From NCBI RefSeq assembly GCF_964275005.1, contig NC_092698.1, positions 32,543,162 to 32,607,161 on the forward strand: a stretch of 64,000 nt of DNA, in the 5' to 3' direction. The first letter of the stretch is position 1, and each line of letters begins with the position of its first letter. A model generated the notes under the pieces. That model searched no databases and was not told the DNA's origin. It saw nothing but the letters and a program-made list of their open reading frames with translations. The DNA is from Diadema setosum. Lineage: Eukaryota > Echinodermata > Echinoidea > Diadematoida > Diadematidae. The position numbers were made by a program, and so were the translations under genes. Shown here piece by piece: positions 11,371 through 56,960 of the stretch.

Positions 11371-14300
11371 ATGTTGAACAAAAATCGCTGGATCATCTTT
11401 CATGTGTTCATTTTCTTCGTCATAACTACGGTAAGCATTTTTCTACTCTTAGTTTTTCCATCATCTTTTATAACCTTCATCCTTTCACTTTTTTTGTCCT
11501 TATCGCCTGGGTGTCTTGTTGTTACAGCGCCATTAGCCCGTTATGTATTGACAGACCTAGTGGGCGATCATAACTTTCCGAAGCACTTATTGACGCACTC
11601 TGTACCGGAGCAAAGTTTCAAAAGACAAAACGAGAATCCAGTATACCAACATGGGGATCATGCGTACATAATTCCACGTTGCTACAAGTTCTATCAAATC
11701 TATCATCAAGAATTCAATTTTGTTTTGAATTAAATTGTTCACTTAGCCATTGAGATGTACACAATTTCAGTTCAATTTTCAAATCAGTTATACTTTATTT
11801 CCATTAAACAGAATGTAATACAGCATCCAGTGCAAGCCATGAAGTGCAAGAAGCAATGTACGTCCTGACAAGTATTCAATGAGATAACAGTGCACACTTT
11901 GCAATGGTAACAAAAATATACGGCATTGGTCAAGTGATGTACACAAAATTATTAGATGTACTGGCTGAAAAGTTCTGCAGACTTGTTGCTCTTTTAATGA
12001 TTATCCCAAAACAAACGAACAAACGTGTGAAGAAATGTTTCATGTCGCACACTTCTACGTCTGTATTTCGTTATTGCGATCGAAAGTTGTTATTCGAAAA
12101 ATTCGTTAACCCGAAATAAGGTTTGTTATTGTAGTCCGAAGATTGAAAAAAAAAGAAAGGTTCGTTAAACGGAAAATGAAAACATGGTTCGAACTGCGAA
12201 AATGAAGCAAACATCATTTGGTCAAAAAATATGATATTGCAATTCCAATTAATAGGATATAACGCACTGAAGATTGGGTGTAGTCTCACTATGACGCTCA
12301 CACGAGTAAATTACTCCCCATAGAGACGTGTGTTAAATTCAAAATTAAAAAAATTCAGTAAAATAGCTGGGAGAAATGAGGTGTTTCTTCTTCACTAACC
12401 GGAAAAAGTGAGATATATCCTTTCATCCATCAGATTGCCAAGGGGGGTTCTTCAGCTCAAACTCTGTCCAAGGGTTCGCAAAGCCAGACTACGAGTCCTT
12501 GTCACTCAAAAAATTACCTTTTTTTCTGTATATGCACCCAATCAAATATAGTCCCTTCAAATTCCATGAGAAAAGCTTTCATCTTCTAACCAAAATGCAG
12601 TTTGTAGAGAAATTCATACTCAATATCTGCAGCTATTCAGTGTTTTGCCAAACTGCATTTCTAATTTTTAATTAATTTTTCTTCATTTATTTTAGTATCT
12701 TTGGTACGATTTTGTGATGCGGTCAGAGACATTCCATTCCATTTACAGGTGTGAGCCCTATAGTATAGAGGTCAAATTTCTTTAAATTATTTTTTTTTAA
12801 TCATATATGTGTTTTTGAAGACATTTACCCCTACATCATATGAGACATTGCACATTGAAGGGTTGTGAAGCTGCTCAAAGGGACACTTTTGAAAATGATG
12901 CACATTGAAGGTTTTCAAAAAATAAATCTTGCAGTGTTGATATAGTTCTATGTAAAAATGAATTTAAATACATACAGTTATCCTTGCATAAGGGGGTATC
13001 ATCATCACCTTGTTGTCTATACAAAGTACTGTAAAAGACTTTCCTATCAAACAGATTAATTTTTATGTATTTTGAAATGTTTCAGTGGTACCCTAAACAA
13101 AGAAATACATTATACCACAATTATTGAAACTTAAGTGATAATGACTACTTTATTATCCATGAATTCAACTACTAAGATCTATACCACAAGAACATAAGAA
13201 AACAAAGTGTAGTTACGCAGAATTAGAGAGAGGGGAGGAAAGAGGAAAGGGGGGGGGGACGGATTTACTTGACAGAAATGACCATCATAAACCAGCAGAG
13301 CATGTATGGCATGAATACTTTCCATTGACTTGTGTGCATTACATGCATACTCTATTGGGCTCACACGGGTAAATAATTCCCCGAGGGCATAGAGACGTAT
13401 ATTAAAATTCAAAGTTCAAAAAATTCAGTAAAATAGCTGGGAGAAATGAGGTGTTTCTTCTTCACTAACCTGAAAAAGCGAGATATATCCTTTCATCCAT
13501 CAGATTTCCAAGGGGGTTCTTCAGCTCAAACTCTGTCGAAGGGTTCGCAAAGCCTGACTACGAGTCCTTGTCACTCAAAAAAATACATATTTTCTGTACA
13601 TGCACCCATCAAATATAGTCCCTTCAAATTTCATGAGAAAAGCTTTCATCTTCCAACCAAAATGCAGTTTGTAGAGAAATTCATACTGAATATCTACAGC
13701 TATTCATTTTTTTTTTGCCAAACTGCATTTCTAATTTTTAATTTATTTTTATTTTTTTTATTTTAGTATCTTTGGAACGATTTTGTGATGCGGTCAGGGA
13801 CATTCCATTTTATTAACAGGTGTAAGCCCTACAGGGTATAGTGATGGGTACAGTTCGTTACTCCAAAATTTTGTTAGAGCTAAGGTTCGTTATTCCGAGG
13901 GATCGTTAATCCGAAGACATAAAGTTAGTAAAAAGGTTCACTAATACGCACCTTTTTTTTCGTGTTCGGCTTAATGAACTTTCAGAATAATGATCTTTAT
14001 TTTGTTTTCGGATAAAGGAATCATCGGTATAATGAACCTTATTTAATTTTCCGACTAATCAGAACCTTCGGAATAACCTTTGCCATACTGCCACGAATGT
14101 TCGAATGAACGAGCTCTATTTCATTTTCGGGTTTATGAACATCGAAGTATGTGGAAATTATGTGTTTCGGAATAACGGACCATCAGAACAACGAACATCA
14201 CCCCTCCTACCTTTCCCCTCCCCAATTCATCCGTTAAAACATGATCTCTTACAAACCCTTGTCTTTTGCAGGTCAATTCTTTACTTCCTTTAAGCAATAA

Positions 14301-17300
14301 TTAATTCAGATATCGTCGAATCGTAAGGAATGACTTATAGAGATAGGATTGCTTTCTCCAGTTTGCCTATTTTTCTTGTGCCACTTCGTCTTTTGACCGT
14401 CAGTAATATTGTCTCCGCAGTTAAAACCTTACTTGACAATGCTTGTAATACCAGGGAGGTCACCTCCCTGGTAATACGTGCAACACGATTATACCCCCAT
14501 TCCACAATGATTTTTCTCATCCGTCACTCGTCGGAAGCAATGTTTGGTGCTTCCGGCCACCAATCGAAGTGTATCGGATCGCATGTCTGATGAATCCGAT
14601 CTGTGTTGATGGACTATCAGACATGTTGTGCGTGATACTCATCGGACGCTCTTGCCTCATCGGATCACCGCCTGACATGTCTGAGACTGAACAGATAGTC
14701 GACAACACAAGTCGGATTCATCGGACTGCGATTCGGTAAAACTACTTCGATTGGTGGCAGGAAGCAGCAAACTTTGCTTCCGACGAGTGACCAATGAGAA
14801 AACATCTCTGTACAACGGGAAATGCAATATTGTTGGATGAAGGAAATCTGATGATTTTTTTGAAAGTCAGTACACATAACAAAATGTCCTCTTTTGTGCT
14901 GCTTGTTTTTCATCAAAGACAACTTGAATGTAGTGAAGAATTTCACCTCCAATCGTTGTTTACGGAAATAACTTGTTTTTTTTTTCTTATCAGACATCAC
15001 CAATTTCTACCACATTGGCAACATCGGTCTTTGAACTTCAATTTGTATCGTACAGCGGGGACTCCCAGAAAGAGAACGGAGACTGTTGCGATTTTCGGGT
15101 GTCTAGGAATTGTAGGATTCGTGGCTGCGACCCCGGATTCGACATCTGCGTCGACGACGAGTGAGCAGCCACGTGCTTTAGTTGAACGTTGCAATTCTTA
15201 TTTAAGTCCTTGAAGTAATTTGATTGCTTACAGCTACAGGAAGTTCACTACTTTGCCAATTCTTCTCTGACGGCATTGTATTAATGTAATTCATCGGATT
15301 AAAGGGACACTTTTACTCTTTTATGCTAAAATATATAATGGTATAGGATATTTACACTTTAATCAAAATTCACAGCAAATCAATTCATTACACGAATTAT
15401 TATTTTTGCTTAGTAACATGTCACGCCATGGCGCATTTTTACGTTTTGAGTAATTTCGTCGAAATAAGTGTATGGTCAGCAGCTTGCTTGTTAGTTTATA
15501 AACGTTGGTATCACTACTTCTCAATCTTTAACGAGTAAATTTCTTGTCAAGAGCAGATTGCTTGTTCCCGCAAAAGATTCCAGACATGAAATCAAATTTA
15601 CGCAAGTGACAGTTACAGTTATGATGCTACATGCAGTCTGCTCCGTGCATTTTAGCCAATTTGTGGTACACTGTCAGCTGAACTTCATATTACTAATAGG
15701 ATGTTGATAATAGTTTTCAAACATGAGGTGCCGCCGTTATCTGTTTATTTAGGGAGTCGTTGTTGTTGTAAGGAGAATCAAATTAGACAATTATACTGAT
15801 AATTGTATAGCAATTATTGGAAGAAGAGGGCAAGTGTTTGCCTTTGACGACCCATCCTCTTAGACGGGTTTATTGTACGTGTCACTGAAAAACGATTTAT
15901 ACCCACTTGCCTTCTGTTTTGCAGCGCTTCATCTTGTAAATATTTTAACAACTATACTGGAGAAGTACAGCAAGACACAGATGAGATAGTATTTGGAGAG
16001 ACAATCGGTTCATTACGAAACCCAATGCTCATAATCTTGGATCAATGGCCTGTAAGTACAGTTTAATTTTGATTTGATTTGATTTGATTTATTTCTGCTT
16101 AATTCCGTTACATCACATATGATTATGTACATGTCATTTATGACAAACAGTATATCGACACATAATAGTTTTTAGTACAATTATACAAGACAAATACAAA
16201 CAGCTTATGGAACTTAAACAGAACGGTCTCCAAAATAAGCCGAGGCTTGACGGTATGGAGTCTATATGCTTACCTACTCTGGATAGAATAGGGAATAGGG
16301 AATAGGGAATTTTTTCTCCAATACTTTTAGCAAAGTTTTGATGCTAACTTCTATAGCGTCATCTCTACACTATCTATCTGCATCATTTATATTATTCTCT
16401 TTTTCATAATAATGGTCGTGAGATGGAGAGATGGTGATATTAGTTGTGGTCAGATTGATTAAATATAAGGTATGACGGTTCAATAAGCTCTTCTCAGATG
16501 CAGTTGATGAGAGTGATTTTCTTTCCAAAACGAACTTCATTTGTTGGCTGGAAGCGTTCGTTTCACGCTGTTGAATAATGACCATGAGACAAACCCTGGC
16601 TAAACGATATTATTCACAAAACATAATTTTTGGCTCAGTCTGCATGCCTTAGCACATGTCAAAGTGGAGATTTAGCTGCTTTTTACATTTCTTGGTGAAC
16701 GTTCAGATTCATCCTCCAATGGCAACATCCGCAATCACCGACAACAAATTGCACAAGAACAACAAGTAACAGCAAAAAAAAAACAAACAAACAAACAAAC
16801 AAAAACAAACAAACAAACAAACAAAGTAACTGAAAACCACCTACTGCAATTGACTGACAAATTCCCTACATCGACTTAAATAAGCACAGAAATAATCAAT
16901 GTTGATAGTAGTATATAGGAGGTCGTAGGTTTGAAACAATGTTGGTGTTCCTCAGGGATCTGTTTTAGGCCCTTTGCTTTTTATATTGTACATTAATGAT
17001 TTGCAATATGCTAGTAACATTTTAGAAGCCATTTTATATGCTGATGATAGCAATTTATTTATTTCTGGGAAAGATTTCAGGGACACATGTGCAATATTAA
17101 ACACTGAATTGAATAAAGTAAACGAATGGTTTTTAGCTAACAAGCTGAAATTGAATGTTGATAAGACTGTATGTATGATTTTTAGAACCAAAAATAGAAT
17201 AATTGATACGGAACATGTAAATATATGTATTGCAGGCACTACTATTCCCATTGTACATTCAGCTAGATTCTTAGGAGTAATACTAGATGATCATTTGACT

Positions 17301-20300
17301 TGGAAGAATCACGTAGATGAAGTTTGCTGTAAGATATCTAGAGCTGTTGGTGCAATCAATAGAATAAGTGGAATAGTACCTTCAAATGTTCTTTTAAATT
17401 TGTATTATACTATGATTTTACCTCATATTTTGTATTGTAACATTATTTGGGGAAATTGTGCCAATTATCTACTTAAACGTATTTATGTTCTTCAAAAACG
17501 TGCAATCAGAATTATTACAAAATCTCAACCCTTAACTCATACACAGCCCATTTTTAAAAAGTTTAGGTTATTAACAGTGTATGATATTAATAAATTTGCT
17601 GTTTGTATTTTTATGTACTCTTATCTTAATAATATTTTCCCCAAATTTCTCGGTAATTATTTTACTTTTACTCAGGCTAGAAATACATACAATACTCGGC
17701 AATTTTATCATTTGTATATCCCAAATTATAGATATAATCACTCCAGACGAACAATATGTTATGCTGGTCCTTCTTTATGGAATGCTTTGCCAAATGACTT
17801 AAAGTGTATCCACAGTTTGAATTTATTTAAGAAAAGATATAAAATACATTTATTAAGTCAATAATTTTTCTGCTTTTGTATGATTTTTAATCAAATTATT
17901 ATGTATAAGGATTAACATATTATGCTAACTTGCCTTGTTGTTTTGTTTCTTGTCAGTTTTGTACTTTGTAATGTCTTCTGTTTAAGTTTTTATGATGTGT
18001 GTTTTTTCTTGTCAATGTATCATTGAATGTATATTTCTTGGGGATTGACCTTGAAAGGCTGGTTTAAGCCTATGTTGATTCCTCCACTTCTCTTGATATA
18101 ACGCCTATGTTTTTTATGTTTTTGTTGTTGTTTTTTTTTTGCCTTTATGATGTCCTTTGTATGCTGTCATGTACAATGTAATTGCCTCTTTTATCAGATT
18201 TGTGGAAATAAATTGAATTGAATTGAAAAAAAACCTGCCCAAGTATGTGTGTCCATGATTTCTTTATCATGGCTACTACTAAACACTGATTAATTCCGCA
18301 CTCATTTACGTCAATGTAGGGCAAATTGTTAATCAGTTGCATAGAATATCATCTCGACGCAAGAATTTCATTAATTTGAAACCAACTGTTTGATTCATAT
18401 TACTTTTCCCTTATCGTTTTCGTTATCATTATGTGCACTATGCACACAACATACTCAGTGCTATCTTTTCAAAAATATCTTAAATAGTTGCGGATGTATT
18501 CTTACTGAAGCAGATGAAAGGTGTTGTTTTGAACGAAATGATAGGTTGATGGGACGTTTGGAAATCTTTAGTCATTCACAAGAAGATTTTTGTATTGATA
18601 ATTCTTCCATTGATGTAGACATCCGGTATTAGACTTGACATCCAGGTTGTTGACAGTGACGACGCCCTGATCGACTCGGAATTGATAGATACATATGATC
18701 ACTTAATATCTGAGAAGCCAAGTGTCCCGACCGCTGAAATCCTGCAAGGCTTGAGGACTGGTGGTCAATTCTTGTCTCCCACCACGTGAGTTCCACGCAA
18801 TCTATTACACCAAGCCTAGCTCTTTATGGAGATACAGATAGAAGTTTGAAGGAAAAAAAAAAGAACAGCTACAGGAGGTTTGCTAAGTTGTGAATGAGGG
18901 TGCTTCGTGTCCATGTTTGTACATCTGATGCTGCGTTCACACGATGTTCCCGGCGGCCACGGCAGTCACGTTTCAGGCCACCGTGGACAAAACGGGATGG
19001 ACGTGAGACAACGCGGTGAGACGGGATAGGCAAACGTAACAGGCCGTGATCGCCGTTGGTATCGTGTCAGATTCTTAAACTGTCAAAAAATGCCCCAATG
19101 CTAATGAGGAACCTTGTATACCGTAATAAAACGGGGTGAGCGCAACAATACACGACGGCACGACGGCATGAAAATATTGATACTGACCAGACGCCATGAG
19201 AACAGCGCCTGATAGCTTTATGTTCACCGGGGAGAGAACTGGAACGAGTAAGACTATAATACGAAAAGGGGAAAACAGGAGAATGCCTCATCTATACCCA
19301 CGGCGCACTACGTTTCGGGTAAACGTATAGGGCTGCCGTTGCCGCCGGGAACACGCTGTAAACGCAGCTTTTATCCTTTAGTTTTTGCTCAGTTTTTAAT
19401 GTAACCTCGTCATGCGCCACATGTGCTTTGAACACCGTCGAAACTAAGGCGCGCATTTCGGGTTAAGATCGAGTCAATACGATCATTCCTCCTCTTAGCA
19501 TGAGTCATCTTCAATACCTATACTACGTTAATTAGTCCAGAAGATAGAAAGTGTCCTAAAAAATGGAACCAAACGCCCGCGTAGTATACAGCAGATCATG
19601 TAAAAAAGATTGATCGTCACTGTGCTAAGAACGGTGCTCTATAATAGTCAAGATGAATTTGAGAGCGATGTCACGAAAATTATCTGATTACACGTAATTT
19701 GATGCATAAACAATACATATCGCTTTCTCTTTCCTTTTCGCGTCATGTCGAAACAATTAAGCCTGAACATTTTGTACACCGTGTACTGCAGCCAACATTT
19801 TTATGGTGAGGAATGTCTAGTCTTCTGTCAATCAAGGAACGATGAATCAGGACATTACTACTGCAACGAGACTACGGGCGGAAAGATCTGCTATCCAGAA
19901 TACGAAGGGAATGACTGTAACATTCTAATAGATAACTGTGATGGCGTGGTGTGTCAAAATGGCGGTGCCTGTCAGGACCTCTTCGACGATTTTCTATGCA
20001 ATTGCAGTAACGGCTACAATGGAACTTACTGCGAAGTAGAGATTGATGAATGTTTGAGTTCACCCTGTCGAAATGGGGCTACTTGCACTGACCTGATTAA
20101 CTCATATTCTTGTGTGTGTTTGCCAGGTTACGAAGGAGTAAACTGTGAAAATGAGACTTTGGAATGCAGTAGTAATCCTTGTCAAAATGGGGCTACTTGC
20201 ATTGATCTTGTCGACTCATATTCTTGTGTCTGTTCACCAGGGTATGAAGGAGTAAATTGTGAAAATGAGACTTTGGAATGCAGTAGTAATCCTTGTCAAA

Positions 20301-23300
20301 ATGGGGCTACTTGCATTGATCTTGTCTATTCATATTCTTGTGTCTGTTCGGGCGGGTATGGAGGAGTAAACTGTGAAAATGATACTTTGGAATGCAGTAG
20401 TAATCCTTGTCAAAATGGGGCCACCTGTATTGACCTGATTAACTCATATTCCTGTGTCTGTTCAGCTGGGTATGAAGGAGTAAATTGTGAAAACGAGACT
20501 TTGGAATGCAGTAGTAATCCTTGTCAAAATGGTGCTACTTGCATTGATCTTGTCGACTCATATTCTTGTGTCTGTTCACCAGGATTTGACGGAGTTAATT
20601 GTGAAAATGAGACTTTGGAATGCAGTAGTAATCCTTGTCAAAATGGGGCTACTTGCATTGATCTTGTCGATTCATATTCTTGTGTCTGTCCGGCAGGGTA
20701 CGAAGGAGTAAATTGTGAAAATGAGACTTTGGAATGCAGTAGCAATCCTTGTCAAAATGGGGCTACTTGCATCGATCTTGTCGACTCCTATTTTTGTGTC
20801 TGCTCACCAGGATTTGAAGGAGTTAATTGTCAAAATGAGACTTTGGAATGCAGTAGTAATCCTTGTCAAAATGGGGCTACTTGCATTGATCTTGTCGATT
20901 CATATTCTTGTGTCTGTTCGGCAGGGTACGAAGGAGTAAATTGTGACAATGAGACTTTGGAATGCAGTAGTAATCCTTGTCAAAATGGGGCTACTTGCAT
21001 CGATCTTATCGACTCCTATTCTTGTGTCTGTTCACCAGGATTTGACGGAGTTAATTGTCAAAATGAGACTTTGGAATGCAGTAGTAATCCTTGTCAAAAT
21101 GGGGCTACTTGCATCGATCTTGTCGACTCCTATTTTTGTGTCTGTTCACCAGGATTTGAAGGAGTTGATTGTCAAAATGAGACTTTAGAATGCAGTAGTA
21201 ATCCTTGTCAAAATGGGGCTACTTGCATCGATCTTGTCGACTCCTATTTTTGTGTCTGTTCACCAGGATTTGAAGGAGTTAATTGTCAAAATGAGACTTT
21301 GGAATGCAGTAGTAATCCTTGTCAAAATGGGGCTACTTGCATCGATCTTGTCGACTCCTATTTTTGTGTCTGTTCACCAGGATTTGAAGGAGTTAATTGT
21401 CAAAATGAGACTTTGGAATGCAGTAGTAATCCTTGTCAAAATGGGGCTACTTGCATTGATCTTGTCGATTCATATTCTTGTGTCTGTCCGGCAGGGTACG
21501 AAGGAGTAAATTGTGACAATGAGACTTTGGAATGCAGTAGTAATCCTTGTCAAAATGGGGCTACTTGCATCGATCTTATCGACTCCTATTCTTGTGTCTG
21601 TTCACCAGGATTTGACGGACTTAATTGTCAAAATGAGACTTTGGAATGCAAGAGTAATCCTTGTCAAAATGGGGCTAGTTGCATTGATCTTGTCGATTCA
21701 TATTCTTGTGTCTGTCCGGCAGGATACGAAGGAGTAAATTGTGAAAACGAGACATTGGAATGCAGTAGTAATCCTTGTCAAAATGGGGCTACTTGCATGG
21801 ATCTTGTGGATTCTTTTTCTTGTGTCTGTTCACCAGGATATGAAGGGGTAAACTGTGAAAATGAGACGTTGGAATGCAGTAGTAATCCTTGTCAAAATGG
21901 GGCTACCTGCGATGACCTGATTAACTCATATTCTTGTGTCTGTTCACCAGGGTATGAAGGAGTAAATTGTGAAAATGAGACTTTGGAATGCAGTAGTAAT
22001 CCTTGTCAAAATGGGGCTACTTGCATTGATCTTGTCGACTCATATTCTTGTGTCTGTTCACCGGGGTATGAAGGAGTAAATTGTGAAAATGAGACTTTGG
22101 AATGCAGTAGTAATCCTTGTCAAAATGGTGCTACTTGCATCGATCTTGTGGATTCTTTTTCTTGTGTGTGTTTGCCAGGGTATGAAGGAGTCAATTGTGA
22201 AAATGTGACTTTGGAATGCAGTAGTAATCCGTGTCAAAATGGGGCTACATGCATCGATCTTGTCGACTCCTATTCTTGTGACTGTCCGGCAGGATATGAA
22301 GGGGTTAACTGTGAAAATGAGACTTTGGAATGCAATAGTGATCCTTGTCAAAATGGGGCTACTTGCATCGATCTTTTCGACTCATATTCTTGTGTCTGTT
22401 CACCAGGGTATGAAGGAGTAAACTGTGAAAATGAGACTTTGGAATGCAGTAGTAATCCTTGCCAAAATGGAGCTACTTGCATCGATCTTGTGGATTCTTT
22501 TTCTTGTGTCTGTTTGCCAGGGTATGAAGGAGTAAACTGTGAAAACGAGACTTTGAAATGCAGTAGTAATCCTTGTCAAAATGGGGCTACTTGCATCGAT
22601 CTTGTGGATTCTTTTTCTTGTGTGTGTTTGCCAGGGTATGAAGGAGTAAACTGTGAAAACGAGACTTTGGAATGCAGTAGTAATCCTTGTCAAAATGGGG
22701 CTACATGCATCGATCTTGTCAACTCATATTCTTGTGTCTGTTCATCAGGTTACGAAGGAGTAAACTGTGAAAATGAGACTTTGCAATGCAATAGTAATCC
22801 TTGTCAAAATGGGGCCACTTGCACTGACCTGATTAACTCATATTCTTGTGTGTGTTTGGCAGGGTATGAAGGGGTAAACTGTGAAAATGAGACGTTGGAA
22901 TGCAATAGTAACCCTTGTCAAAATGGGGCTACTTGCATGGATCTCGTGGATTCTTTTTCTTGTGTCTGTTCACCAGGATATGAAGGAGTAAACTGTGAAA
23001 ATGAGACTTTGCAATGCAATAGTAATCCTTGTCAAAATGGGGCCACTTGCACTGACCTGATTAACTCATATTCTTGTGTGTGTTTGGCAGGGTATGAAGG
23101 GGTAAACTGTGAAAATGAGACGTTGGAATGCAATAGTAACCCTTGTCAAAATGGGGCCACTTGCATGGATCTTGTGGATTCTTTTTCTTGTGTCTGTTCA
23201 CCAGGGTATGAAGGGGTAAATTGTGAAAACGAGACTTTTGAATGCAGTAGTGATCCTTGTCAAAATGGGGCTAATTGCATTGATCTTGTCGACTCATATT

Positions 23301-26300
23301 CTTGTGTCTGTTCCCCAGGATATGAAGGAGTAAATTGTGAAAATGAGACTTTGGAATGCAGTAGTGATCCTTGTCAAAATGGGGCTACTTGCATTGATCT
23401 GATTAACTCATATTATTGTGTCTGTTCGGCAGGGTATGAAGGAGTAAACTGTGAAAATGAGACTTTGGAATGCAGTAGTAATCCTCGTCAAAATGGGGCT
23501 ACTTGCGTGGATCTTGTGGATTCTTATTCTTGTGTCTGTTTACCTGGGTATGAAGGAGCAAATTGTGAAAATGAGACTTTGGAATGCAGTAGTAATCCTT
23601 GTCAAAATGGGGCTACCTGCAATGACTTGATTAACTCTTATTCTTGTGTCTGTTCACCAGGGTATGAAGGAGTAAACTGTGAAAATGAAACTTTCGAATG
23701 CAGTAGTAATCCTTGCCAAAATGGAGCTACTTGCGTGGATCTTGTGGATTCTTATTCTTGTGTCTGTTTACCTGGGTATGAAGGAGTAAATTGTGAAAAT
23801 GAGACTTTGGAATGCAGTAGTAATCCTTGTCAAAATAGGGCTACCTGCAATGACCTGATTAACTCTTATTCTTGTGTCTGTCCAGCTGGGTATGAAGGAG
23901 TAAATTGTGAAAATGAGACTTTCGAATGCAGTAGTAATCCTTGTCAAAATGGGGCTACCTGCATGGATCATGTGGATTCTTATTCTTGTGTCTGTTCACC
24001 AGGATATGAAGGGGTAAACTGTGAAAATGAGATGTTGGAATGCATCAGTGATCCTTGTCAAAATGGGGCTACTTGCATTGACCTGATTAACTCATATTCT
24101 TGTGTCTGCTCGACCGGGTATGAAGGGGGAAACTGTGAAAACGAGACTTTGGAATGCAGTAGTAATCCTTGTCAAAATGGGGCTACTTGCATCGATCTTG
24201 TCGACTTTTATTCTTGTGTTTGTTCGCCTGGGTATGAAGGAGTAAACTGTGAAAATGAGATTTTCGAATGCATTAGTAATCCTTGTCAAAATGGGGCTAC
24301 CTGTATTGACTTGATTGGATACTATATTTGCAACTGCTCGATCGGGTTCGAAGGAAGTACTTGTGAACTTGAAATCTTAGAATGTGCAAGTGTGCCTTGC
24401 TTGAACGGTGCTACCTGTGTCGATTCTATAGGCTTGTTCTCTTGTGTTTGTGCTGATGGTTTCGAGGGTACCGTTTGCGAAAACAAAGTTTCGTATTGTT
24501 TGAGCAATCCCTGTTTTAATGGAGCAACGTGTCTTGATGCAACTGATGGGTATTTTTGCGAATGTCCTGTGGGATTTGAAGGAGAACGCTGCAAGGTCGA
24601 CATCGACGAGTGTTTGAGCAGTCCCTGTACCAATGGCGGAACTTGCATCGATTTGCCGGATGAGTACAGGTGCAGTTGTCCCCCTGGGCGCTCTGGAATT
24701 GACTGTTCGAATGACATCGACGAGTGCGAACTGGAAGAGTCCTGTCCAGCTAATGCAGTCTGCTCAAACACCGACGGGTCGTACGAATGTACCTGTCTTG
24801 ATGGGTTTGCTGGGACTAACTGCGAGGTCGTTACAAATCCCTGCATTTCGTCACCATGTGAAAACGGGGATTGTGATACCATCGGAACAGATGCATTCAG
24901 GTGTGTTGAATGAAGTCAATCAATATAAACATGTAATCAGTAGACGTAATCTCACAAACGTTTGTATGACACACTGTGCAACTTTTTTTTTTCTTGGATG
25001 GTTCATTTTTAGGGCCTTCCTCATTGAATAGAATGACATCCTTAATTCTTATACAGCAAGTCATTAATCATGGACGAAGGTAATGAAAAATATAACAATT
25101 AGAGTAAGGATGCAATTGAATGGTTAAGTAAAAATCGATGATATCGAAAGTAGAAGGTAATAGCATTTAACGGTTGTAATTGTTTCATGTCACCTCATAG
25201 TTTCCATAGTGTGTGACTAATGCACATTGTTGCACGAGTAAATAGGTATGACCTCCAGGTTATGTAAACTCTTTTGTTGTTGTTGTTGTTGTTGAAAAGA
25301 CGGAATTCTACTTGATTCTGTGCTATGTGTCAGTTACACGGCTATTACATTTTTTTTTTTAATAAGACATCAAGATGAGACGTACACATCACATTGTAGC
25401 AAGTTGCCAAGCAGTTTAAAAGGATTGTGTGTGGGTTGGTACAAAATACACTCTTGTGGTACCCATGACATGCGTAGCTAGAGGGTATTATTGTGTACTT
25501 CCATTTATGCTATTCCCTCTGTTTCTATTGTAAACTTGTATATACACATACAGATATGTATTATTATATCATATTGGTGTATGCATGTGTGAGTTTGTGT
25601 GTATTGTGTGTGAGTTCATAGACATTTTCACAACTTTTTACACCTTTGAACAATCTTAGATGCCAATGCATCGCCGGATATATTGGAGAGACTTGCGCAG
25701 TAGCCGATCCCTGCTTGTCTAACCCATGCCAGAATGGCGGGGAGTGCGAAAGCGACCTCTCCGGAACTTGGCAGTGCCGCTGCATCGACAACTATGGCGG
25801 TTTTCTGTGTGAACTGGGTAAGCACGTTGCTGGCATGAATATATTATACCGTATGTCAAAAAAAAAAATACATTGGCAACCTTTGCAATGATAACTTTAA
25901 GAATAGAAAATCAATCCAAATACAATTTCAGGGTATGAAACAATAACTCATTACACACATCTTACAGAAAACCCGATTTGATTTGCTTCAGTGGTAAAAA
26001 AAAAAAAAAAAAAAAAAAATGAGGAATTTTGTAGAGCATGTCAGGAATCCCTTCCCTCCAAGTTCCGTTAATTGTCTTCACACATTATGCAGTCCCAAGA
26101 GCATCCAAGTGTAAACTTGGAAGAATCTGACCCATGACATGCTTTACAACAATCCTCATTTCTCTGTAACCACTTAACCAAATTGAATTGAGTTTTCTGT
26201 AATATATAGCTAAAATGTTATATTTCAAGACCCTGAAGTGGCATTTAGACAGTTTGATCATATTGATAGTTATCAATGCAAAAATCTGATTGTAATTTTT

Positions 26301-27572
26301 TATCTATTTTTTTTTTTGGGGGGGGGGGAAGGGACATACTGTAGAGTGCCGGAAGACAGTTTGAACATATAGTTATAGAAACAATAATGTGGTTTTAACT
26401 TATGACGGATTTTCCCATCGTTGTGCATACGTCGAAAAGGATCACTGCGTCCTCCCCCCTTCCCCCATTGTCGTTAGCATCACTTTGCAATATTACAATG
26501 AATATCGACCACGTCGAATATACTATTGTGAAAGAAAATAAATTGAATGTATATTGGCACTGTCCATCAGTCGTGATCTATTTCTTGTTGTTACATTGTC
26601 AATGTTTATTTTCAGAATACAGCATGAAACTCTGAGCTTATGCTCATCTACCTTGATATCAATAGGGCTCACATCTCCTAAATAAGGTCATGGTAAACAA
26701 AAATCCAGGTAAATAACGAATGCTGGACGGACAGTATTGGAGTAATTTTCTCAAAGTGAATCAAACCACACTTCTGACTTGTCATCATATCTGAATCCAA
26801 TCACAGATCTTGAAGGAAATTCCGTAAGTATGTTTGTGTTTGGCTCCGACATCGATCACGACAAATTTGAGGAGGAAATGGAAGATGCTTTAGCTGAGGT
26901 GTATGGGGAGGACGTCGAAGTTATGGTTGCTCAGACATCGGATTATTTCACGCCAGATACAGGGTAAGCTATTATTGACTTACCCCCCCCCCCCATTTCT
27001 AATTTCAGGTGAAATCTATAGACATATACATAACACTATAGAGAAATAATATTACATACGAATTAAAGTGAATATTCCCTTCATTGCACTTAGAAAAAAA
27101 AATAGTGATATTACATTAACAATCTAACTTTATTTACAACGCGATATTGCCAATTTAGATACGAGAACTACATATCTTATGTATGACAGAAAATTGTTGT
27201 CTTGTCTTTGCAATTCTGCAAATTGCAAGTGGTTACAAAACATGATAGAATCTGAAGCAATTGTTTTCAGAATGTGCAGTAGAAGTGATGTTTTAGACTA
27301 AAACAGTTATACCAACAGGACATTGCTCTTCAAACCAGCTAGTATCTATTTTAGGTATTGACTGTAATAACTTTGATTTGTTAGAGTAAAGAAATTATGA
27401 AAGAACTAGTAGTGTCCCAGCGGGCAAGAACACAGTGTGAAACACGGGGTAAATTGGAACGTTTTAGCAGAGTGAACACAGTGGCTCACTTCTTTCTCAT
27501 ATATCAGAGCTTGCTTCTAAAACTCGCTAAATCCATCATTTTTCAATGGATTTAGCGCCTTTTGGAAGTATA

Positions 27573-27624
<52 letters not shown>

Positions 27625-30600
27625 CTGGTGACGAAGAAATGGCTGCTGGCAGACGTTGCAGTATGTTCACTTTGCCTTTTAATTTACATTAAATTGTAAT
27701 TAAAGTGAACATAACACTACAACGTCTACCAGCAGCCATTCTTCCTCAGTCACAACTACCTAAAATGCAGCACCAATCACGTACGAGGCCGAGCCCACTT
27801 TATCTTATTAATATATATATAGGGGTCCCCCCCCCCCCCTCCCCCAACAAGATCTCGGCCATGGAAAGTCCGATTGTCGCCTAATTCGGCATGCACCTAG
27901 TTTATGACGTACATGTACATTACAAGAACGGATAGTTATTTTTTTTTTAATATCATAATTTTCTAATTAAGGCTTATTAATATTCATCATTATGTGTGGA
28001 CAAATCCAAAACAGCATAAAATTATCTTAAAAAAAACACCAAAATAGATTGCTTATACTGACCACAGATATTCCGTATTATCATACACACTACAATCGTG
28101 CCAAGATCCATCCGGTATAACACTAACAAAAAAAACAAACAAACAAACAAACAAACAACAACAACAACAAACATGATAATACTGGCAGTAAACATTTCCG
28201 CCGATGATACAAATAAAAGGGCATACCTCAATACAAAGCCGTTGACAGAGATCTAATTTACTTTGCAATTATATTATTGTCATTATTAGTGAAGAAGTAA
28301 GTGGCGTCACCTTCGTCGTCTACGTCAATGGAACAGCCCTGTCGTCGGAGGATCTTAACGAAGTGCCCAGCGCCATACAGGACGATTTGGCGGACGAGAC
28401 CACGTTTGAGTTTTACTATGGAGAGGTCGTTGAGCAAAACCCAGCTGGGGCCGAGGTATTTCAGGGTTCATGTCCTGTCCCTGCATAAGTTATGAAACTG
28501 ACATAACTGGCGAACGGAATATTTGGTGCATATCATAATTTAACGCACTCAATATTTTAACAACTAGAAAGTTTGCCTTGTATTTGCCTGAGCTTTGCCT
28601 GACATAGCACCAACCAACATGCATTTAATGCATACCACCTGGATGAAACATGTCCGTAAATGTGAGTTCACCAGTGTTAGACAGGTTGTAAGACTCAACG
28701 GACTGATCTATCTAAATGGAATCAATTATGAATTTAAGGGGAACAATGCATCATTGAATAGTTTGTGCAGTGTCCTCTCTACTCGACATTTTTGTCCTTT
28801 CACAGTACATGTAGGTAGGCCTACTATGGATGTAATGAATGTAATAAGGAGGGCCTAGATCGTGCCATGTTGTATCGACAAAAATCAATGTGTGAATAAA
28901 TGACAGAGTTATTAATCTGCTTACTGTGTTTAGAATGCCTGAAGAATGAAGAATGTTACGTTTTCGATCTGCTGTATTTCATATTGCTTTCTCTCGTATT
29001 TACATTATTCCATTGAACAGATAAGAATTACATCTAGACAGAAACTCAGACGAGATTGTACATGGCATGATCGTTCAGCATTATGAGAATGTAATGATAT
29101 GCGTTCGTGTTATTTTCTTTTTCTTCTGTACCTCCAGACATGGTTAGAGCAGTACTGGTACGTGGCCGTCATCGCCGGACTGGTCAGCATCTGCCTTCTG
29201 ATGGCGCTCACACTGGCTGTGGCCCAGGCCTGCGCTAATCACAGGTAGGTGGTCCCTTGTCAACCGAGGTGTGTGTGTTTTACGCTGAACACTTTATAGC
29301 ATGCCATTACAAGAGGCAAACAGCTCTCGAGGCATATCTTCGACCACTAGAAGGTAAATTGGAAATTGAAATAATAATAGAGAGACTCTTATAGAGCGCT
29401 CATTCTACCTTTCAAAGATAGTCATGGCGCTGTGGAACAGATTTCGTTACAACTGCAGAATATCATAGAAGGTACAAGAATAATTAGCAATCAAACAATA
29501 TACGTACATAATATAGATACGTGAAAACAATAACATTGTCAATTTAAATAAAAGATACGTTTTGAGGTTCTTTTTGAAAGCATTAATAGAGGATATACTT
29601 GTCGTAGAGATATTGGAAGGTCGTTCCAAAGTTTTGGGTCCATGACACCGAGAAAGCATAACCCTCAACTATGCCTAATTCGAGGTATCTGTAATTTTTG
29701 GGGAGTTCGATGAGATTTCGTGGTGGTTCGTGAAGATGAAGAGTATCTTGAAGGCAGGCAGGGGCAAATTTGTGCAATGTACGGTAGACAAGAAGAAGAA
29801 TCTTGAAGTTAATGCGTTTTTCTTACAGGGAGCCAGTGTAGGGACCGACGTATTGGCGTAATATGTGTTGTTTTCTCCGTGAAGGTAAAGTATTCTCGTG
29901 GCACAGCTCTGAAGACGTTGCAGTTTACTGAGTTCTTGTTGTGGAAGACTGCAAAACAAAATGACTATAATCCAACGGCTCCTGTAATGGGTACACCCCC
30001 ATGCTTACCACAAAGCATGGTGCATACACACCTGGAGATTTCATGAAGCATTTTGTCAGATTTTTTCCTGGAAAACCGTTATTAGCTACCGAAATCCTTG
30101 CATCTGATTGGGTGACAGCAAGTTTGTCAGACAAATTTGTCGGACAAAATCCTTCATGAAAATGTCCCCCAGGACTCCCGTTGTCAATGGTTGTGTTGCA
30201 CTCTTCGAGATAGCAGAATTTTCCAATGACGTGACAAAGCGTTCACAGCCTATGTTTTGCAGCAAAATCTCAGCGATATAAAAAATGGACCCATCCATTT
30301 CTGGATATATTCATGGAGGATGATAAAAGCATGCTGAATTATGCAGAAACTACCACAAAATCTAATACAACCACAGTTTTATAGTTCTACCCAACATTTC
30401 CAATAAGTACACTGCTCAGTAAACACGCATCTGCCGGGTCACTGCAATGATGACGGAGATTCCAACTTAGGGGGCGCTGTGATCAATTATTGTGATCAAT
30501 TATTGATTTTTGCTATGTCAGATACTGTTCAAGCTCTTTGCCCCATCATTTTAATTGGGTCACGGCTACCAATAACGCGTACAAGCGTGCCAAAGCACTA

Positions 30601-31165
30601 TAGCAGAGTAAAGTCGTTATAGAGTTGGCTATGTTAAAAGAAAATGGTAGAAGGTACCAATGTTAAAATTGACAAATGGTTATGATAATTACGATAGTCA
30701 AACGAAAACGAACAAAAGTCTTTCTCTTTTCTATATTTCCTTCATTTACAGAACGTTTCTGTAGTTGAATCGTCTGAATCTTACACACTCCGTCTCAAGA
30801 AGTTTATCTTGTTACACTTGCTTCATTACAACATTTTGTCTTCACTGTCCTACATTGACCTAGATCCACGAAGGGAGACTGATAATCTGTACTTTTGTGA
30901 GTTATCAATCTGTCTTTATATTCTCACCATGATTAGCCTCGAGAAGAGCAAGACGGAAGCATCGCAGCGGCGTCTGAAGGGCCCCCAGCCAGAAGAACTC
31001 GTAGGAGACTCATTCCAAAGGACACTGAAGCTAGCTTGGTACGCCCAGGAAGACGACTTAAATCAGGCATACGTCATCAATGGGTCGAAACGAAACCCTG
31101 TCTTCATGTTAGAAGATGACGAAAGTGACTATGTCAGAGATTCATATACTGATCGCTATGTCTGA
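11371..31165 (+). CDS. DSL-domain Notch-ligand-like protein with about 45 EGF repeats
   Basis: Ten exons join in frame: 11371-11430, 14994-15160, 15925-16051, 18619-18785, 19762-24900, 25660-25817, 26807-26963, 28290-28455, 29138-29244, 30937-31165 (TGA at 31163), giving 2158 residues. Domains: signal peptide 1-20 (MLNKNRWIIFHVFIFFVITT); MNNL-like region from 33 with FELQFVSYSG, NGDCCD and CDPGFDIC; a WPTSGIRLDIQVVDSDD strand; DSL domain 183-226 with CSQHFYGEECLVFC, SRNDESGHYYC and CYPEYEGNDC; EGF repeats from about 229 to 1938, including 37 near-identical 38-residue units at 304-1709; an EGF-free juxtamembrane region 1940-2047; transmembrane helix about 2055-2077; cytoplasmic tail of about 80 residues with five lysines, ending TDRYV. 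Domain order and all DSL cysteines match Delta/Jagged ligands. Odd points: EGF count far above the usual 6-16, no DOS-type EGFs after DSL, and Tyr in place of the usual DSL Trp. The ATG is the only in-frame start before the signal peptide. Notch binding is inferred. Confidence 0.88.
12295..12758. mobile_element. Non-autonomous DNA element, copy 1
   Basis: Terminal inverted repeats run GCTCACACGAGTAAAT to TTTACAGGTGTGAGCCC. The body matches 13357-13830 along its length (for example AAATAGCTGGGAGAAATGAG and TTGTGATGCGGTCAG). Both copies lie in intron 1 of the DSL-type gene in the same orientation. No transposase is present. Confidence 0.85.
13357..13830. mobile_element. Non-autonomous DNA element, copy 2
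   Basis: Ends are GGGCTCACACGGGTAAAT and ACAGGTGTAAGCCCT, inverted relative to each other. It is closely similar to copy 1 (12295-12758), with scattered substitutions and small indels. The 106-codon open frame at 13446-13766 is part of the repeat and is disrupted in copy 1, so it is unlikely to be a gene. Confidence 0.85.
13850..14200. repeat. Degenerate GTTCGTTATTCCGA foldback repeat
   Basis: The left half repeats GGTTCGTTATTCCGA-like words. The right half carries the complements (CTTCGGAATAACCTT, CGGTATAATGAACCTT, TTTCGGAATAACGGACC). Related words occur at about 12065-12200, just before the element at 12295. This is a minisatellite arranged as an inverted repeat. Confidence 0.6.
14448..14479. 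repeat. Short perfect palindrome
   Basis: TACCAGGGAGGT is followed directly by its complement region ACCTCCCTGGTA. This could form a cruciform or hairpin in intron 1 of the DSL-type gene. Confidence 0.75.
14524..14790. mobile_element. Foldback MITE
   Basis: The left end TCACTCGTCGGAAGCAATG and the right end TTTGCTTCCGACGAGTGA are complementary. Inner parts also pair (CCACCAATCGAAGT with ACTTCGATTGGTGG; GATGAATCCGA with TCGGATTCATC). It lies about 200 bp before exon 2 of the DSL-type gene. Confidence 0.85.
16060..16320 (-). mobile_element. LINE or SINE 3' tail fragment, minus strand
   Basis: The stretch opens with repeated GATTT words, the complement of an AAATC tail, followed by unique sequence ending in triple AATAGGG words. 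Element 3' ends in this window share such tails. No coding part remains. Confidence 0.4.
16777..16825. repeat. AAAC microsatellite
   Basis: Repeated CAAA words run up to the left end of the inverted-repeat element at 16845. Similar AAAC tracts lie at 10387, 28135, 52932 (complement) and 56403. Confidence 0.85.
16845..18341. mobile_element. Inverted-repeat element split by a LINE
   Basis: The left end (TGCAATTGACTGACAAATTC ... CATCGACTTAAATAAGCAC) is repeated in reverse complement at 18286-18341 (TGCAACTGATTAACAATTTG ... CATTGACGTAAATGAGTGC). The match extends to about 75 bp with AATCA and AGTAGTA words. A LINE occupies nearly all the space between. A compact relative lies at 52166-52250. Confidence 0.6.
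16935..18233 (+). mobile_element. 5'-truncated LINE with reverse-transcriptase C-terminus
   Basis: The open frame from 16935 to 17864 (about 309 codons) encodes the C-terminal part of a non-LTR reverse transcriptase: VGVPQGSVLGPLLFILYIND, the catalytic box LYADDSNLF, LNVDKTVCMIF, the thumb region (LKRIYVLQKRAIRIITK) and AGPSLWNALPNDLKC. The endonuclease and N-terminal half are missing by 5' truncation. A 3' UTR follows, ending in ATTG words plus an A run at about 18210-18233. The clean frame suggests a fairly young insertion. It sits in intron 3 of the DSL-type gene, in sense orientation. The family resembles CR1/Jockey-type LINEs, by motif only. Confidence 0.9.
18930..19368. mobile_element. 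Non-autonomous DNA transposon with GCTGCGTT ends
   Basis: The left end GCTGCGTTCACACGATGTTC and the right end (complement GCTGCGTTTACAGCGTGTTC) match for about 45 bp, including CCCGGCGGC. The interior is GC-richer than its surroundings and has no transposase. It lies in intron 4 of the DSL-type gene. Confidence 0.85.
20150..24367 (+). repeat. 114-bp tandem repeat array coding 37 EGF units
   Basis: Thirty-seven head-to-tail units of exactly 114 bp (38 codons) with no intron lie inside exon 5 of the DSL-type gene. The consensus unit reads NETLECSSNPCQNGATC, then IDLVDSYSCVC, then SPGYEGVNCE. Units 1-36 are nearly identical at DNA level and unit 37 starts to diverge. Six older, diverged EGFs follow, the fifth of them split between exons 5 and 6. 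Larger blocks also repeat: units 24-25 are copied as 26-27, and units 9-11 are almost the same. Unit 30 has Arg in place of its second Cys (CGT at 23486-23488), so it should lack a disulphide. Unit 33 has NRATC for NGATC. The near-identity suggests recent expansion or ongoing homogenisation. Confidence 0.97.
25270..25296. repeat. TTG microsatellite
   Basis: Repeated GTT in intron 5 of the DSL-type gene. Confidence 0.8.
27574..27614. repeat. TA microsatellite
   Basis: A TA run next to the foldback at 27628. Confidence 0.85.
27628..27753. mobile_element. Small foldback MITE
   Basis: Arms of about 55 bp: ATGGCTGCTGGCAGACGTTG on the left pairs with CAACGTCTACCAGCAGCCAT on the right, and TGTTCACTTT pairs with AAAGTGAACA. 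It lies in intron 7 of the DSL-type gene. Confidence 0.8.
29365..29970 (-). mobile_element. Degenerate 5'-truncated LINE, minus strand
   Basis: Minus-strand frames give ELSKLQRLQSCATRIL, then LHKFAPACLQDTLHLHEPP, then CHGPKTLERPSNISTT and FKKNLKTYLLFKL, in the order of a CR1/L2-type reverse-transcriptase C-terminus. They are spread over several frames, so the copy is dead. The 3' end carries the common GCGCTC...CTATAAGAG sequence and a TTATTATT tail on the minus strand. It lies in intron 9 of the DSL-type gene. Confidence 0.8.
30031..30173. mobile_element. Small foldback MITE
   Basis: The left segment CCTGGAGATTTCATGAAGCA and the right segment (complement CCTGGGGGACATTTTCATGAAG) are inverted, continuing ATTTTGTCAGA against ATTTTGTCCGA. 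The centre has repeated TTTGTCAGACAAATTTGTC words. It lies in intron 9 of the DSL-type gene. Confidence 0.7.
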
Positions 31166-42400: not shown

Positions 42401-45400
42401 AATACCAATTGTTATACGCAGCTGATATCAATATAATTTGGAATTGGTGATTGTACCACTGCAATAGCAACAAAGAATATCCAATGAAATAGTAATGAAA
42501 CAGAGTAACACTGATTAGATAATATTGAATAAATTCATAAAATAACCTTGATTGTATTGATAAATATGAAAACACGATGTTCTTACCAATCACTTTGGTG
42601 TTCTACTAATATAATGATAATAGTAAGTACTGTAAGAACAATAGAGTAAATACAATAGAGTAAAAACTATTATATGCGCCTAACAGGCAGCAGCAGCAGT
42701 GTCTCCAGAGCTCCTGAAATTTCGGATATTTCGTCGTTACTATATATTGTATCTGTGATATCTGATTTTGTTTTGTATTATAGGTTAATCTAACTGTGCA
42801 ATGGTTCTGATGAATAAGATTGACCCTTTGTTATTTTTATGCTTTTTTTTTCATCGCTACATTGTATTATGTGAGTATTTTTAATGTATACATGGCCATT
42901 TGTTAACAATGTCTGTAATTCAGCCTCCGGGCTGCGAAAGATACTGATTAATAAAACACCCCTTTCAATTCAATTCAATTCAATTCAATTCAATTCAATT
43001 TCAATTCAAATATGAATATCAGTAACAATAGAAACAAATATGAGTTCATTGTTTAGTGTCACACCTGTGAGACGAATGTGTGACAAAATGCTTTTTCAAG
43101 ACACACATGAAACTCACCATGCACAATTCTAGAGTACGCAATGCATTCCGCACCCGTCTCTTTGCACACAGTTTATCGTATACACATGATTTTTTTAATT
43201 TGAAATGACATATCAATATACACTGTAATGTCAACAACCATGGCTTGGATGACAGTTACACACCTTTCTCAACAACTTTTTGCACTCGGTTATTATCGCC
43301 AGTATACAAAAATCCATGTATACTGCAAGCAATAATAAGCATTTTATAACAGACAGTTATACCAGAATTATTGTGCCTCTTTTTCAATATATGACTACAA
43401 TAAACAAAAAACAAACAAAACAAAATAAAAACGAAGAACAAAACAAAACAAATGCAACCCGCCTTCTTTGGTAAGTAAGTAAGAAACAACTTTTCACATA
43501 AATTATCAATTTGATGTTCAATCTATAACAAACGTATATGCAAGCTATTTGCTTTTATGTTTTTAGTGAAATCTACATCTGTCATTTTTCGCTCACTTTC
43601 ACTTATTTCATGCATGCTGACTTTCACCCTATCACGTTCAATTTGTGTCTTTCCCAGCCGTTGGTCAGTTCGCAGCGATGGCTCTGCACGCAAAGCCAGA
43701 TGACGCCGTGGCTGAAATCGACTTAACCACTGACGTGTACGACTACACTGTCAGTCAGTGGGGTATAAACGTAAGATTTTGAATCTATGTATCCCTATGG
43801 TTTCGTGCGATTTGTGTTTCACGCCTTTTCAATAGAACCATGGTTTCCTTACTTTTTTACTCGCTATTGTCAATATTTTACTAAATATCATTATTCATTT
43901 ATTTATTTTTCACTAAAATTCTTAAGGTAATTTTGTCACCCATTGAACACTTTGTTTGTGTCTGGGAACATTGTATACACAAGAGAACAAGGAGTGTTCT
44001 ACAATAGACCTTATACGCTGAAAATAGTCTCCAGTATAATTTCAGGTTCCGAATATTGAGTTCTCACCTGTTGACAACTAAAAGTATCTGGTTTCGTATT
44101 TTTGTGATTAAAGGCTCACTCGCCAGACCCTGTAAGTAGGACAAGTCATTTTACCCATAACGTTGCCCTCATGACTGACCGGTTTGTTTTACAGACTGTT
44201 AAAATTCACAGGACGACTGAAAGAAGGCTTATAACACCAAATTCTATAACTAGGGATGGGAAAAAGTAACTGAACTTCATATCAACCTTGTGTCATTTGC
44301 TTTGTTTGTGTTCGTTTGACCTTTTTTTTCAGGATGTTGTCATTATGGGAGACCTGAACGCTGATTGCGATTACGTCAGAGCCGATGACTGGGAAAACAT
44401 CCGATTGCGAAGCGAGAGTCGCTTTGAGTGGGTTATACCGGACAGCGCTGATACCACAGTCTCTGGGAACACCGACTGTGCGTATGACAGGTCAGTTATG
44501 CACTGTTTCTTGTCTTTCATGTACATGTTGCCTTTTGATGTTATGAAGCGATATGTATATATCATTATTCTTGCATTTCGGGGTGTTTTTATTTTGTTGA
44601 TTTTTGTGTTGTTGTTGTTGTTGTTGTTTTGGTGTTGTTGTTGTTTTTGGACATATAGAATAAACACTGATTCACTCTCGCGGTATTCCATTTCACAGGG
44701 TGACATATACTAACCATGACAAAGATTATCTCTCTCCCTCTCTCATTTTCTCGGCCTCCCATTATCAATATATCTCTTATTCTCATTAACGAGCAGTGCG
44801 CCGACTTATATCGCATAACACAGTTTGCAGTAACCGGTCATTAATTCTTACTGAACTAATATGTTTATTTCATTGCTGTTAGTGATCACTTTGCTAGCTG
44901 TTCTTCTGCACTTCCTTTCTATCTTTATCCCCCCCCCCCCCCCCCCCCGTTTGAGATTGTTCGTCTTGATCGATTGAATTTCTAAGTTTATCATTATCAT
45001 TTTTGTTGTTCATGAACCAGGTTCGTGTTAGCGGGAACCCAACTTTGTAACTCCTATTCCCAACCTGCCGTCTTCAAGTTCGACGACTTCTATAATCTTA
45101 ACTACGACGCGGTGAGTTCTTTGTCCTTTGACTGATAACACGAATGAGTTTTCACTACCCTAATCGGCTGTTATATGCTTGTCATTCTTTTCTGCTCTCC
45201 TGCATTAAATTTGGGAACATTTAATCTTGGAAGCACAGATGTTTGAATTTTCTTTTCTTCATGTCTGCTCAATAAGCCAGTTCGGGGTTAACTCATGGGC
45301 ACATGGATACAAGTGACCTTTCTTCCTTTTTCAGTTGGTTGAAATAGGCACTCAACTAGTTTCAAGCGACAGAAGGCATAAGCTTGCCCAACGTAACAAT

Positions 45401-56438: not shown

Positions 56439-56960
56439 TTCATGTTTTAAAAGACCATTTTTAGAATAAACTAACATCGTGGTAGCAAGTATGATACAAC
56501 AGCGTTACACATCGCATTTCCAATTAGATCTACGAGTAGCTACATGTAGATTCATTAGGGGAAAATACAATATACATTTTCATGTCTTCAGAGCGGTTGC
56601 TACATTAGGGCCATCCCGCCTCTTCTTGCACAGTGTAAGTCTAATTCCGCAAGTTGAGAAGACTCGAAGTACATTTACAAATTATTATCATGTATATTCA
56701 TAATAAAAAAATCTCTGTTTGCTACATACACGTATCTAATCTAAAAACATTCAATACGGGTGGGATAGTCCTCAAACAATAAACAAAAAATTGAAATTCA
56801 ATGTTGATTTTGAATTGGTATTTGATGATGATTAAATAAAAAAGGACAAAGAGAGTGATACTCAAAGATCACGATACTCCCTTCCATTGCAACTGAAATA
56901 TTCTCTTTCTCTGCTTATTATAGTCATCTTCGAGAGTCACAACGTCCTCAACACATCGTC

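Follow-up and report, generated by a model that had tools for sequence, protein, structure and literature searches.

A ten-exon gene of Diadema setosum predicted to encode a divergent DSL-domain protein with 45 EGF repeats, most of them with a sequon in the linker

A stretch of 64,000 nucleotides of Diadema setosum DNA, hereafter the window (C14:32543162-32607161 in a genome of 912.7 Mb and 102 contigs), was analyzed. At window positions 11371-31165, a ten-exon gene was modelled on the plus strand, with AG/GT borders, matching phases and a frame of 2,158 amino acids (aa) without stop. The encoded domains follow in the order hydrophobic leader, MNNL/C2, DSL, 45 EGF repeats, juxtamembrane region, one transmembrane helix and a tail of 80 aa. 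The exons and the features located in them, all in window positions, are the following.

11371..11430, plus strand: exon 1, start codon and hydrophobic leader (aa 1-20); GT donor, phase 0
14994..15160, plus strand: exon 2, start of MNNL/C2 with the cysteines CC...C...C...C; by itself 18.7 bits for Pfam MNNL
15925..16051, plus strand: exon 3, middle of MNNL with the sixth cysteine and an NP...W motif; phase fits
18619..18785, plus strand: exon 4, last part of MNNL with a DSDD loop
19762..24900, plus strand: exon 5, a single exon open over 5.1 kb; DSL, then the repeats from EGF1 into EGF44, most of which it encodes
19787..19921, plus strand: DSL domain, aa 183-227; Pfam PF01414, 6.8e-14 on exon 5
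19847..19849, plus strand: Ser203, aligned with Jagged-1 Phe207 of the Notch-binding face
20066..24313, plus strand: tandem repeat of 114 bp (38 aa), 37.3 copies, 87% matches, no indels
20150..24250, plus strand: EGF3-EGF38, 36 repeats; a linker sequon (N-x-[ST]) in 35, absent from EGF37
23471..23566, plus strand: EGF32, Arg at the second cysteine, which leaves an odd cysteine in the array
25660..25817, plus strand: exon 6, end of EGF44 and EGF45; Pfam EGF 2.3e-7, in phase
26807..26963, plus strand: exon 7, putative first half of the juxtamembrane region, from open frame and phase only
28290..28455, plus strand: exon 8, putative second half of the juxtamembrane region, from open frame, phase and weak paralog likeness
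29138..29244, plus strand: exon 9, transmembrane helix at about aa 2056-2076; hydropathy peak 2.65
30937..31165, plus strand: exon 10, cytoplasmic tail with 5 lysines and stop codon
31094..31105, plus strand: NPVF, an NPx[FY] motif in the tail, found by motif scan and common by chance

The earlier note on this DNA had proposed ten exons, an MNNL-DSL-EGF-transmembrane plan and about 45 EGF repeats. The exon model agrees with the borders and phases (for exons 7-10 with frames and phases only), the plan is borne out by the Pfam DSL and MNNL matches, the EGF count and the hydropathy peak, and the repeats counted were 45. The leader, a putative signal peptide by hydropathy alone, gave a weaker hydrophobic peak (hydropathy window 1.73 at aa 8).

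The exon joins were compared with those of six DSL paralogs (P1-P6), which were read from two stretches of C14, the chromosome of the window. Profiles were built from these six paralogs with the window sequence left out and ranked against 1,258 window ORFs, among which exon 2 (E 1.3e-6), exon 3 (E 3.8e-4) and exon 4 (E 0.0057) each came first with their own profile. Matches to exons 2, 3 and 4 and to the DSL domain are collinear on one strand in 6/6 paralogs, the exon 4 match of P1 being weak (E 0.29). Since all six keep this order and the paralog-only profiles pick these exons first, the MNNL exons do not belong to another gene, and the earlier joining of exons 1-4 to exon 5 is upheld as far as DNA goes. 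In the Jagged-like gene on C1, read by eye, an exon starts at the position corresponding to that just after the W-P of exon 3. Further downstream, exon 7 fell outside the top 6 window ORFs for the paralog juxtamembrane profile, and exon 8 ranked third (E 0.33; tblastn against the paralogs E 0.065). Exons 9-10 gave nothing under E 0.08 against the paralogs by tblastn. Judged from its DNA, the gene is real. Exons 1-6 and their domains can be read from the sequence, and the last four exons are less certain, their joining being deduced from open frames and phases.

Other coding remnants were observed in the window. A fibrinogen C-terminal domain exon lies upstream at 1888-2205 (Pfam 1.6e-11) and probably belongs to a separate gene. 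The intron between exons 3 and 4 holds a reverse transcriptase fragment (16935-17861; RVT_1 4.7e-12). An endonuclease/exonuclease/phosphatase-like frame at 44270-44710, read as DNase I-like, scored 0.0013, under the Pfam cut-off, and 56859-57194 was also read as DNase I-like by eye, with no Pfam match.

The identity of the DSL domain is certain (52.3 bits against a Pfam cut-off of 24.2), and its PDB matches are Notch ligands. The MNNL call is weaker and just passes the Pfam cut-off of 22.5. Exon 2 alone stayed below it and the joined N terminus of 233 aa gave no Pfam MNNL match as a query; aa 31-182, from the joined exons 2-4, reached 22.7 bits (E 7.6e-5). The MNNL and DSL domains read earlier from motifs thus both reach their Pfam cut-offs. 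With aa 21-182 alone as query, no Notch ligand was among the PDB matches, and aa 1-233 were aligned to Jagged-1 (PDB 5uk5) over aa 32-230. Of the 8 PDB hits (E up to 10) of an MNNL profile built from seven family members, window included, 7 were Notch ligands and the eighth was a C2-domain protein. Two of the ligands scored under 0.001, fly Delta being the best (3.4e-7). With an E limit of 1, Pfam MNNL was matched by all seven family rows (7/7). In our reading by eye, the DSDD loop of exon 4 may be equivalent to the calcium/lipid loop of Jagged-1.

The EGF count of 45 comprises 44 repeats found by pattern and EGF32, in which a cysteine is replaced by Arg. Linker sequons (N-x-[ST]) are present in 35/45 repeats. 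The EGF linker calcium motif, [DN]x[DN][EQ]C, is present in 2/45, so the array is not one of calcium-binding EGFs by this motif. For comparison between genes, one common pattern was used. It skips EGF44, which is split, and EGF32, which is broken, and hence finds 43 window repeats, with sequons in 34/43 and calcium motifs in 2/43. With the same pattern, 187 repeats were counted in nine DSL paralog loci out of eleven, some of them only partly read; sequons are present in 1/187 and calcium motifs in 141/187. Since repeats share descent, these sequon and calcium counts are descriptive and not a test. Loss of the calcium motif alone is not special, because a 43-EGF array on C8 without a DSL match has neither calcium motifs (0/43) nor sequons (0/43). 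The latter array, an open frame on the minus strand (L040, C8:10486000-10491200), has linkers such as TETLE and METLE, which resemble NETLE of the window. By consensus pattern, O-glucose sites were counted in 42/45 window repeats, O-fucose sites in 39/45, Asp/Asn hydroxylation sites in 42/45 and O-GlcNAc sites in 0/45. Among open-licence literature, judged by titles and the starts of abstracts, no DSL protein with linker sequons was found.

The DNA of EGF3-EGF38 is on average 87.7% alike (a difference of about 12%) versus 57.6% for the 71-EGF paralog described below, which argues for an array that is young or homogenised; identical repeats are present as well (EGF12 and EGF13, EGF26 and EGF28). 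Over the 36 repeats, pS was 0.345 and pN 0.067, giving a dN/dS of about 0.15 (pairs non-independent; computed without gene conversion). A decaying minisatellite was ruled out on these values, pS exceeding pN across the repeats. The dN/dS value indicates that the repeats are held by selection on the protein, and they are under purifying selection as judged from sequence. Notch EGF11-13 with calcium forms a rod of about 10 nm, as reported for that fragment (PMC3415683). By analogy, 45 EGFs of equal stiffness would span roughly 150 nm, which for an array short of calcium motifs would be an upper bound. A four-EGF AlphaFold model had a pLDDT of 58.1 and was uninformative on stalk geometry.

One strong hydrophobic peak was found in the protein, at about aa 2056-2076. 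Before the helix, paralogs P3-P6 have a two-exon domain in common. In P1, the first half of this domain was chosen by eye and is doubtful and the second half matched at E 0.013; in P2 the domain was looked for and not found. Exons 7-8 of the window occupy the same place, end at a comparable Gly and show 14-22% identity in the alignment. The likeness is not significant, and a common origin with the paralog domain would be a guess. Pfam and PDB searches with the exons 7-8 region, SEA included, gave no match. Strand-helix-strand is the order of SEA domains, and in our reading the region may follow this pattern twice. SEA domains are hard to detect by sequence, as illustrated by a sensitivity control in which the SEA of mucin-1 matched no chain but those of mucin-1 at any E below 0.02. 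The juxtamembrane single-exon structure model had a mean pLDDT of 53.3.

Motifs of the NPx[FY] type are known as endocytosis signals. The plain motif was found in 34/50 control tiles, and the first aromatic of [FY]xNPx[FY] is absent from the window tail, so uptake through this tail would be weakly supported and the motif gives only a hint of it. Frames with [FY]xNPx[FY] after the helix and on the right strand were present in 4/4 paralogs scanned versus 9/50 control tiles, where the tiles include the paralog genes themselves and the tails of P1, P4 and P5 were chosen by the motif itself.

The genome holds at least 14 DSL matches: two on C1, ten on C14 (window included), one on C11 and one on C19. 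Twelve of the 14 are non-canonical, ten of these on C14. The C1 pair looks canonical, L001 with DOS/Jagged-type EGFs and L002 Delta-like by tree and reading. By sequence, the window gene is a member of a divergent DSL family expanded beside these Delta-like and Jagged-like genes. A cluster of five DSL genes within 160 kb was observed at C14:36765001-36925000 (L009-L024). Pattern counts of EGFs in P1-P6, which are lower bounds because split EGFs are missed, were 20, 8, 17, 1, 31 and 31, respectively. The longest array is the following.

C14:23648800-23657600 (23.65 Mb): DSL paralog L030/L039, 71 EGFs in one open frame of 2,736 codons beside the DSL domain

Its EGFs (L039) carry the calcium motif in 62/71 and no sequons. 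Between P4 and P5, likeness is 89-91% for MNNL exons 2-3 and for the first juxtamembrane exon, and 75% for the second juxtamembrane exon; only a few EGFs were seen in P4, whose surroundings were read in part so that its short array is uncertain, versus at least 31 in P5. Because these near-copies differ greatly in EGF number, array length appears to be labile. The earlier note had considered the length exceptional and given 6-16 EGFs for known DSL ligands. Both statements were incorrect: the survey of Gazave et al. 2009 reports 0-75 EGFs for Delta proteins (PMC2770060), and 71 are present in the paralog. A record length is ruled out on the same grounds. The size is thus not new; attention is better given to the large family of non-canonical DSL genes in which this one is placed and to its calcium sites having been exchanged for sites that are likely to carry glycans.

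Residues of the DSL domain were compared with those of Jagged-1, in which F207 lies in the Notch-binding face (PMC3415683) and F207A is reported to reduce Notch1 binding to background (PMC3888931). In the alignment, Phe stands at the F207 position in 2/2 canonical genes and in 0/12 non-canonical DSLs. Ser203 takes the place in the window, and the other eleven have Gly, Val, Leu (four times), Arg, Ile or a shortened loop without Phe (three times). The window DSL retains counterparts of Phe199 and Arg203, and the R201 position is Gln in the Jagged-like gene of D. setosum. Canonical Notch activation is unlikely as the main job because the key phenylalanine is gone across the entire branch. Some residual Notch binding would be possible, since F207 is one residue of a larger interface, the Phe199- and Arg203-like residues have been retained, and even the Jagged-like gene has Gln for R201. 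The first EGF is not DOS-type (EGF_DL_JAG 12.4 bits, cut-off 27), versus 45.2 bits for Jagged-like L001; DLL4 is also reported to be without the DOS motif (PMC6986876).

In a DSL-only tree, five canonical rows grouped at 95/98 with the window outside. In an MNNL+DSL tree, which holds no canonical gene of D. setosum, JAG1 and DLL4 were separated at 100/100 from a set made up of the window and five paralogs. The window forms a long branch in the trees, to which no exact sister could be assigned. Given the lost F207, the first EGF that is not DOS-type and trees in which the window stands apart from the canonical rows, the protein is filed, from its sequence, as a divergent DSL protein, neither Delta nor Jagged. 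Of the Notch-ligand-like reading in the earlier note, the domain plan stands; a plain Notch ligand does not, since the F207 position is Ser and the first EGF is of another type, nor did the phylogeny place the window among canonical DSLs.

The reading that we prefer, and hold with as much belief as doubt, is that of a glycan-shielded type I protein of the cell surface, which belongs to a divergent DSL family and is not a canonical activating ligand. Its C2/MNNL-DSL head would be carried on 45 EGFs, followed by the juxtamembrane region, the helix and a tail with NPx[FY]. The partner of the head might not be the canonical Notch EGF11-12 site, or binding there might be weak, and the protein might serve adhesion or uptake, or dampen Notch, rather than activate it. 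Adhesion, uptake and Notch dampening are the leading candidates, among which the data do not discriminate, and partner, effect and uptake through the tail are suggestions from sequence. A recent, selected expansion of one EGF type would have built the stalk, which is probably both O- and N-glycosylated. With linker sequons in place of the calcium motif, it would be a glycan-shielded and more flexible stalk and not a calcium-stiffened rod; occupancy and flexibility are both presumed here, and the sequons may be unoccupied.

A bolder version, which we put forward tentatively and consider rather improbable, holds that a giant DSL family gave up canonical Notch binding and that selection swapped the calcium clamp for an N-glycan at 35 joints, giving a glycan-sheathed, calcium-independent stalk. 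If true, the sequon swap would tune the mechanics and shielding of an EGF array in a novel manner. The change from calcium motif to sequon in one member, near absent in nine relatives, is a natural experiment on EGF-array stiffness, and paralogs with few to 71 EGFs allow tests of the importance of stalk length. DSL proteins are usually taken as Notch ligands by default. With two canonical genes and at least 12 DSLs without an F207-like Phe in D. setosum, DSL gene counts may overstate the number of Notch ligands.

Dampening as the main function, through binding of Notch in cis or blocked access to it, seems unlikely. The analogy is with large EGF proteins when overexpressed, such as Uninflatable (Uif) of the fly, which has 18 EGFs and one helix and is described as antagonising Notch at a step dependent on the Notch extracellular domain (PMC3340373). 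A weakened DSL face would suit such a non-activating ligand; a meeting with Notch is, however, a supposition, and the effects of Uif came from overexpression. Of similarly low probability is a lineage-specific family of recognition or uptake receptors that has nothing to do with Notch and owes its diversity to local duplication and turnover of repeats. The presence of ten DSL loci on a single chromosome, the very different EGF numbers of the sister genes P4 and P5 and the [FY]xNPx[FY] frames of the paralogs would fit this, although the short array of P4 is uncertain and three of the four tails were chosen by motif.

We doubt more strongly that the protein is a true activating Notch ligand with a long stalk for extra reach, as the earlier note had proposed. 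Ligand ubiquitination uses lysines, of which the tail has five, MNNL and DSL are present in the domain order of Delta, and the Phe199- and Arg203-like residues are kept. This reading is opposed by the loss of the F207-like residue from all 12 non-canonical DSLs found, the window included, while the canonical genes keep it, by the type of the first EGF, and by paralog EGF numbers from few to 71, which speak against a fixed reach. An artefact of wrong exon joins, or of a repeat number altered by assembly, is very unlikely: a 114-bp tandem array with identical repeats is easily mis-sized and exons 7-10 lack significant paralog matches, but the phases agree across nine junctions, the paralog profiles single out exons 2-4, and 5.1 kb run without frameshift or stop through repeats that differ from one another.

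Set beside known systems, the glycan-shielded DSL protein that we favor resembles Jagged-1 and Serrate in having MNNL/C2, DSL, EGFs and one helix. It differs from them by the absence of a VWC match (Pfam, exons 6-10), of a DOS-type first EGF and of F207, and by 45 EGFs versus the 12-18 given for Jagged/Serrate in the survey (PMC2770060). With Delta, DLL1, DLL4 and fly Delta it has MNNL and DSL in common, fly Delta being the best PDB hit of the family MNNL profile, whereas it lacks the F207-like residue and lies outside the group of five canonical rows in the DSL tree. A DSL domain with a very long EGF array is also found in the long Delta proteins of the survey, for which the comparison is by EGF number alone (PMC2770060). 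The 71-EGF paralog lies on the same chromosome and likewise has DSL followed by a single-exon EGF array; it differs by its calcium motifs, its lack of sequons and units 58% alike, versus 88% in the window. Notch itself has EGFs similarly rich in O-fucose and O-glucose consensus sites and differs from the window protein, which has DSL and MNNL; neither LNR nor ankyrin gave a Pfam match in the pieces scanned, which covered exon 5 up to position 20200. Uninflatable of Drosophila, finally, is a large one-helix EGF protein with 18 EGFs (PMC3340373) versus 45 and offers a possible functional analogy.
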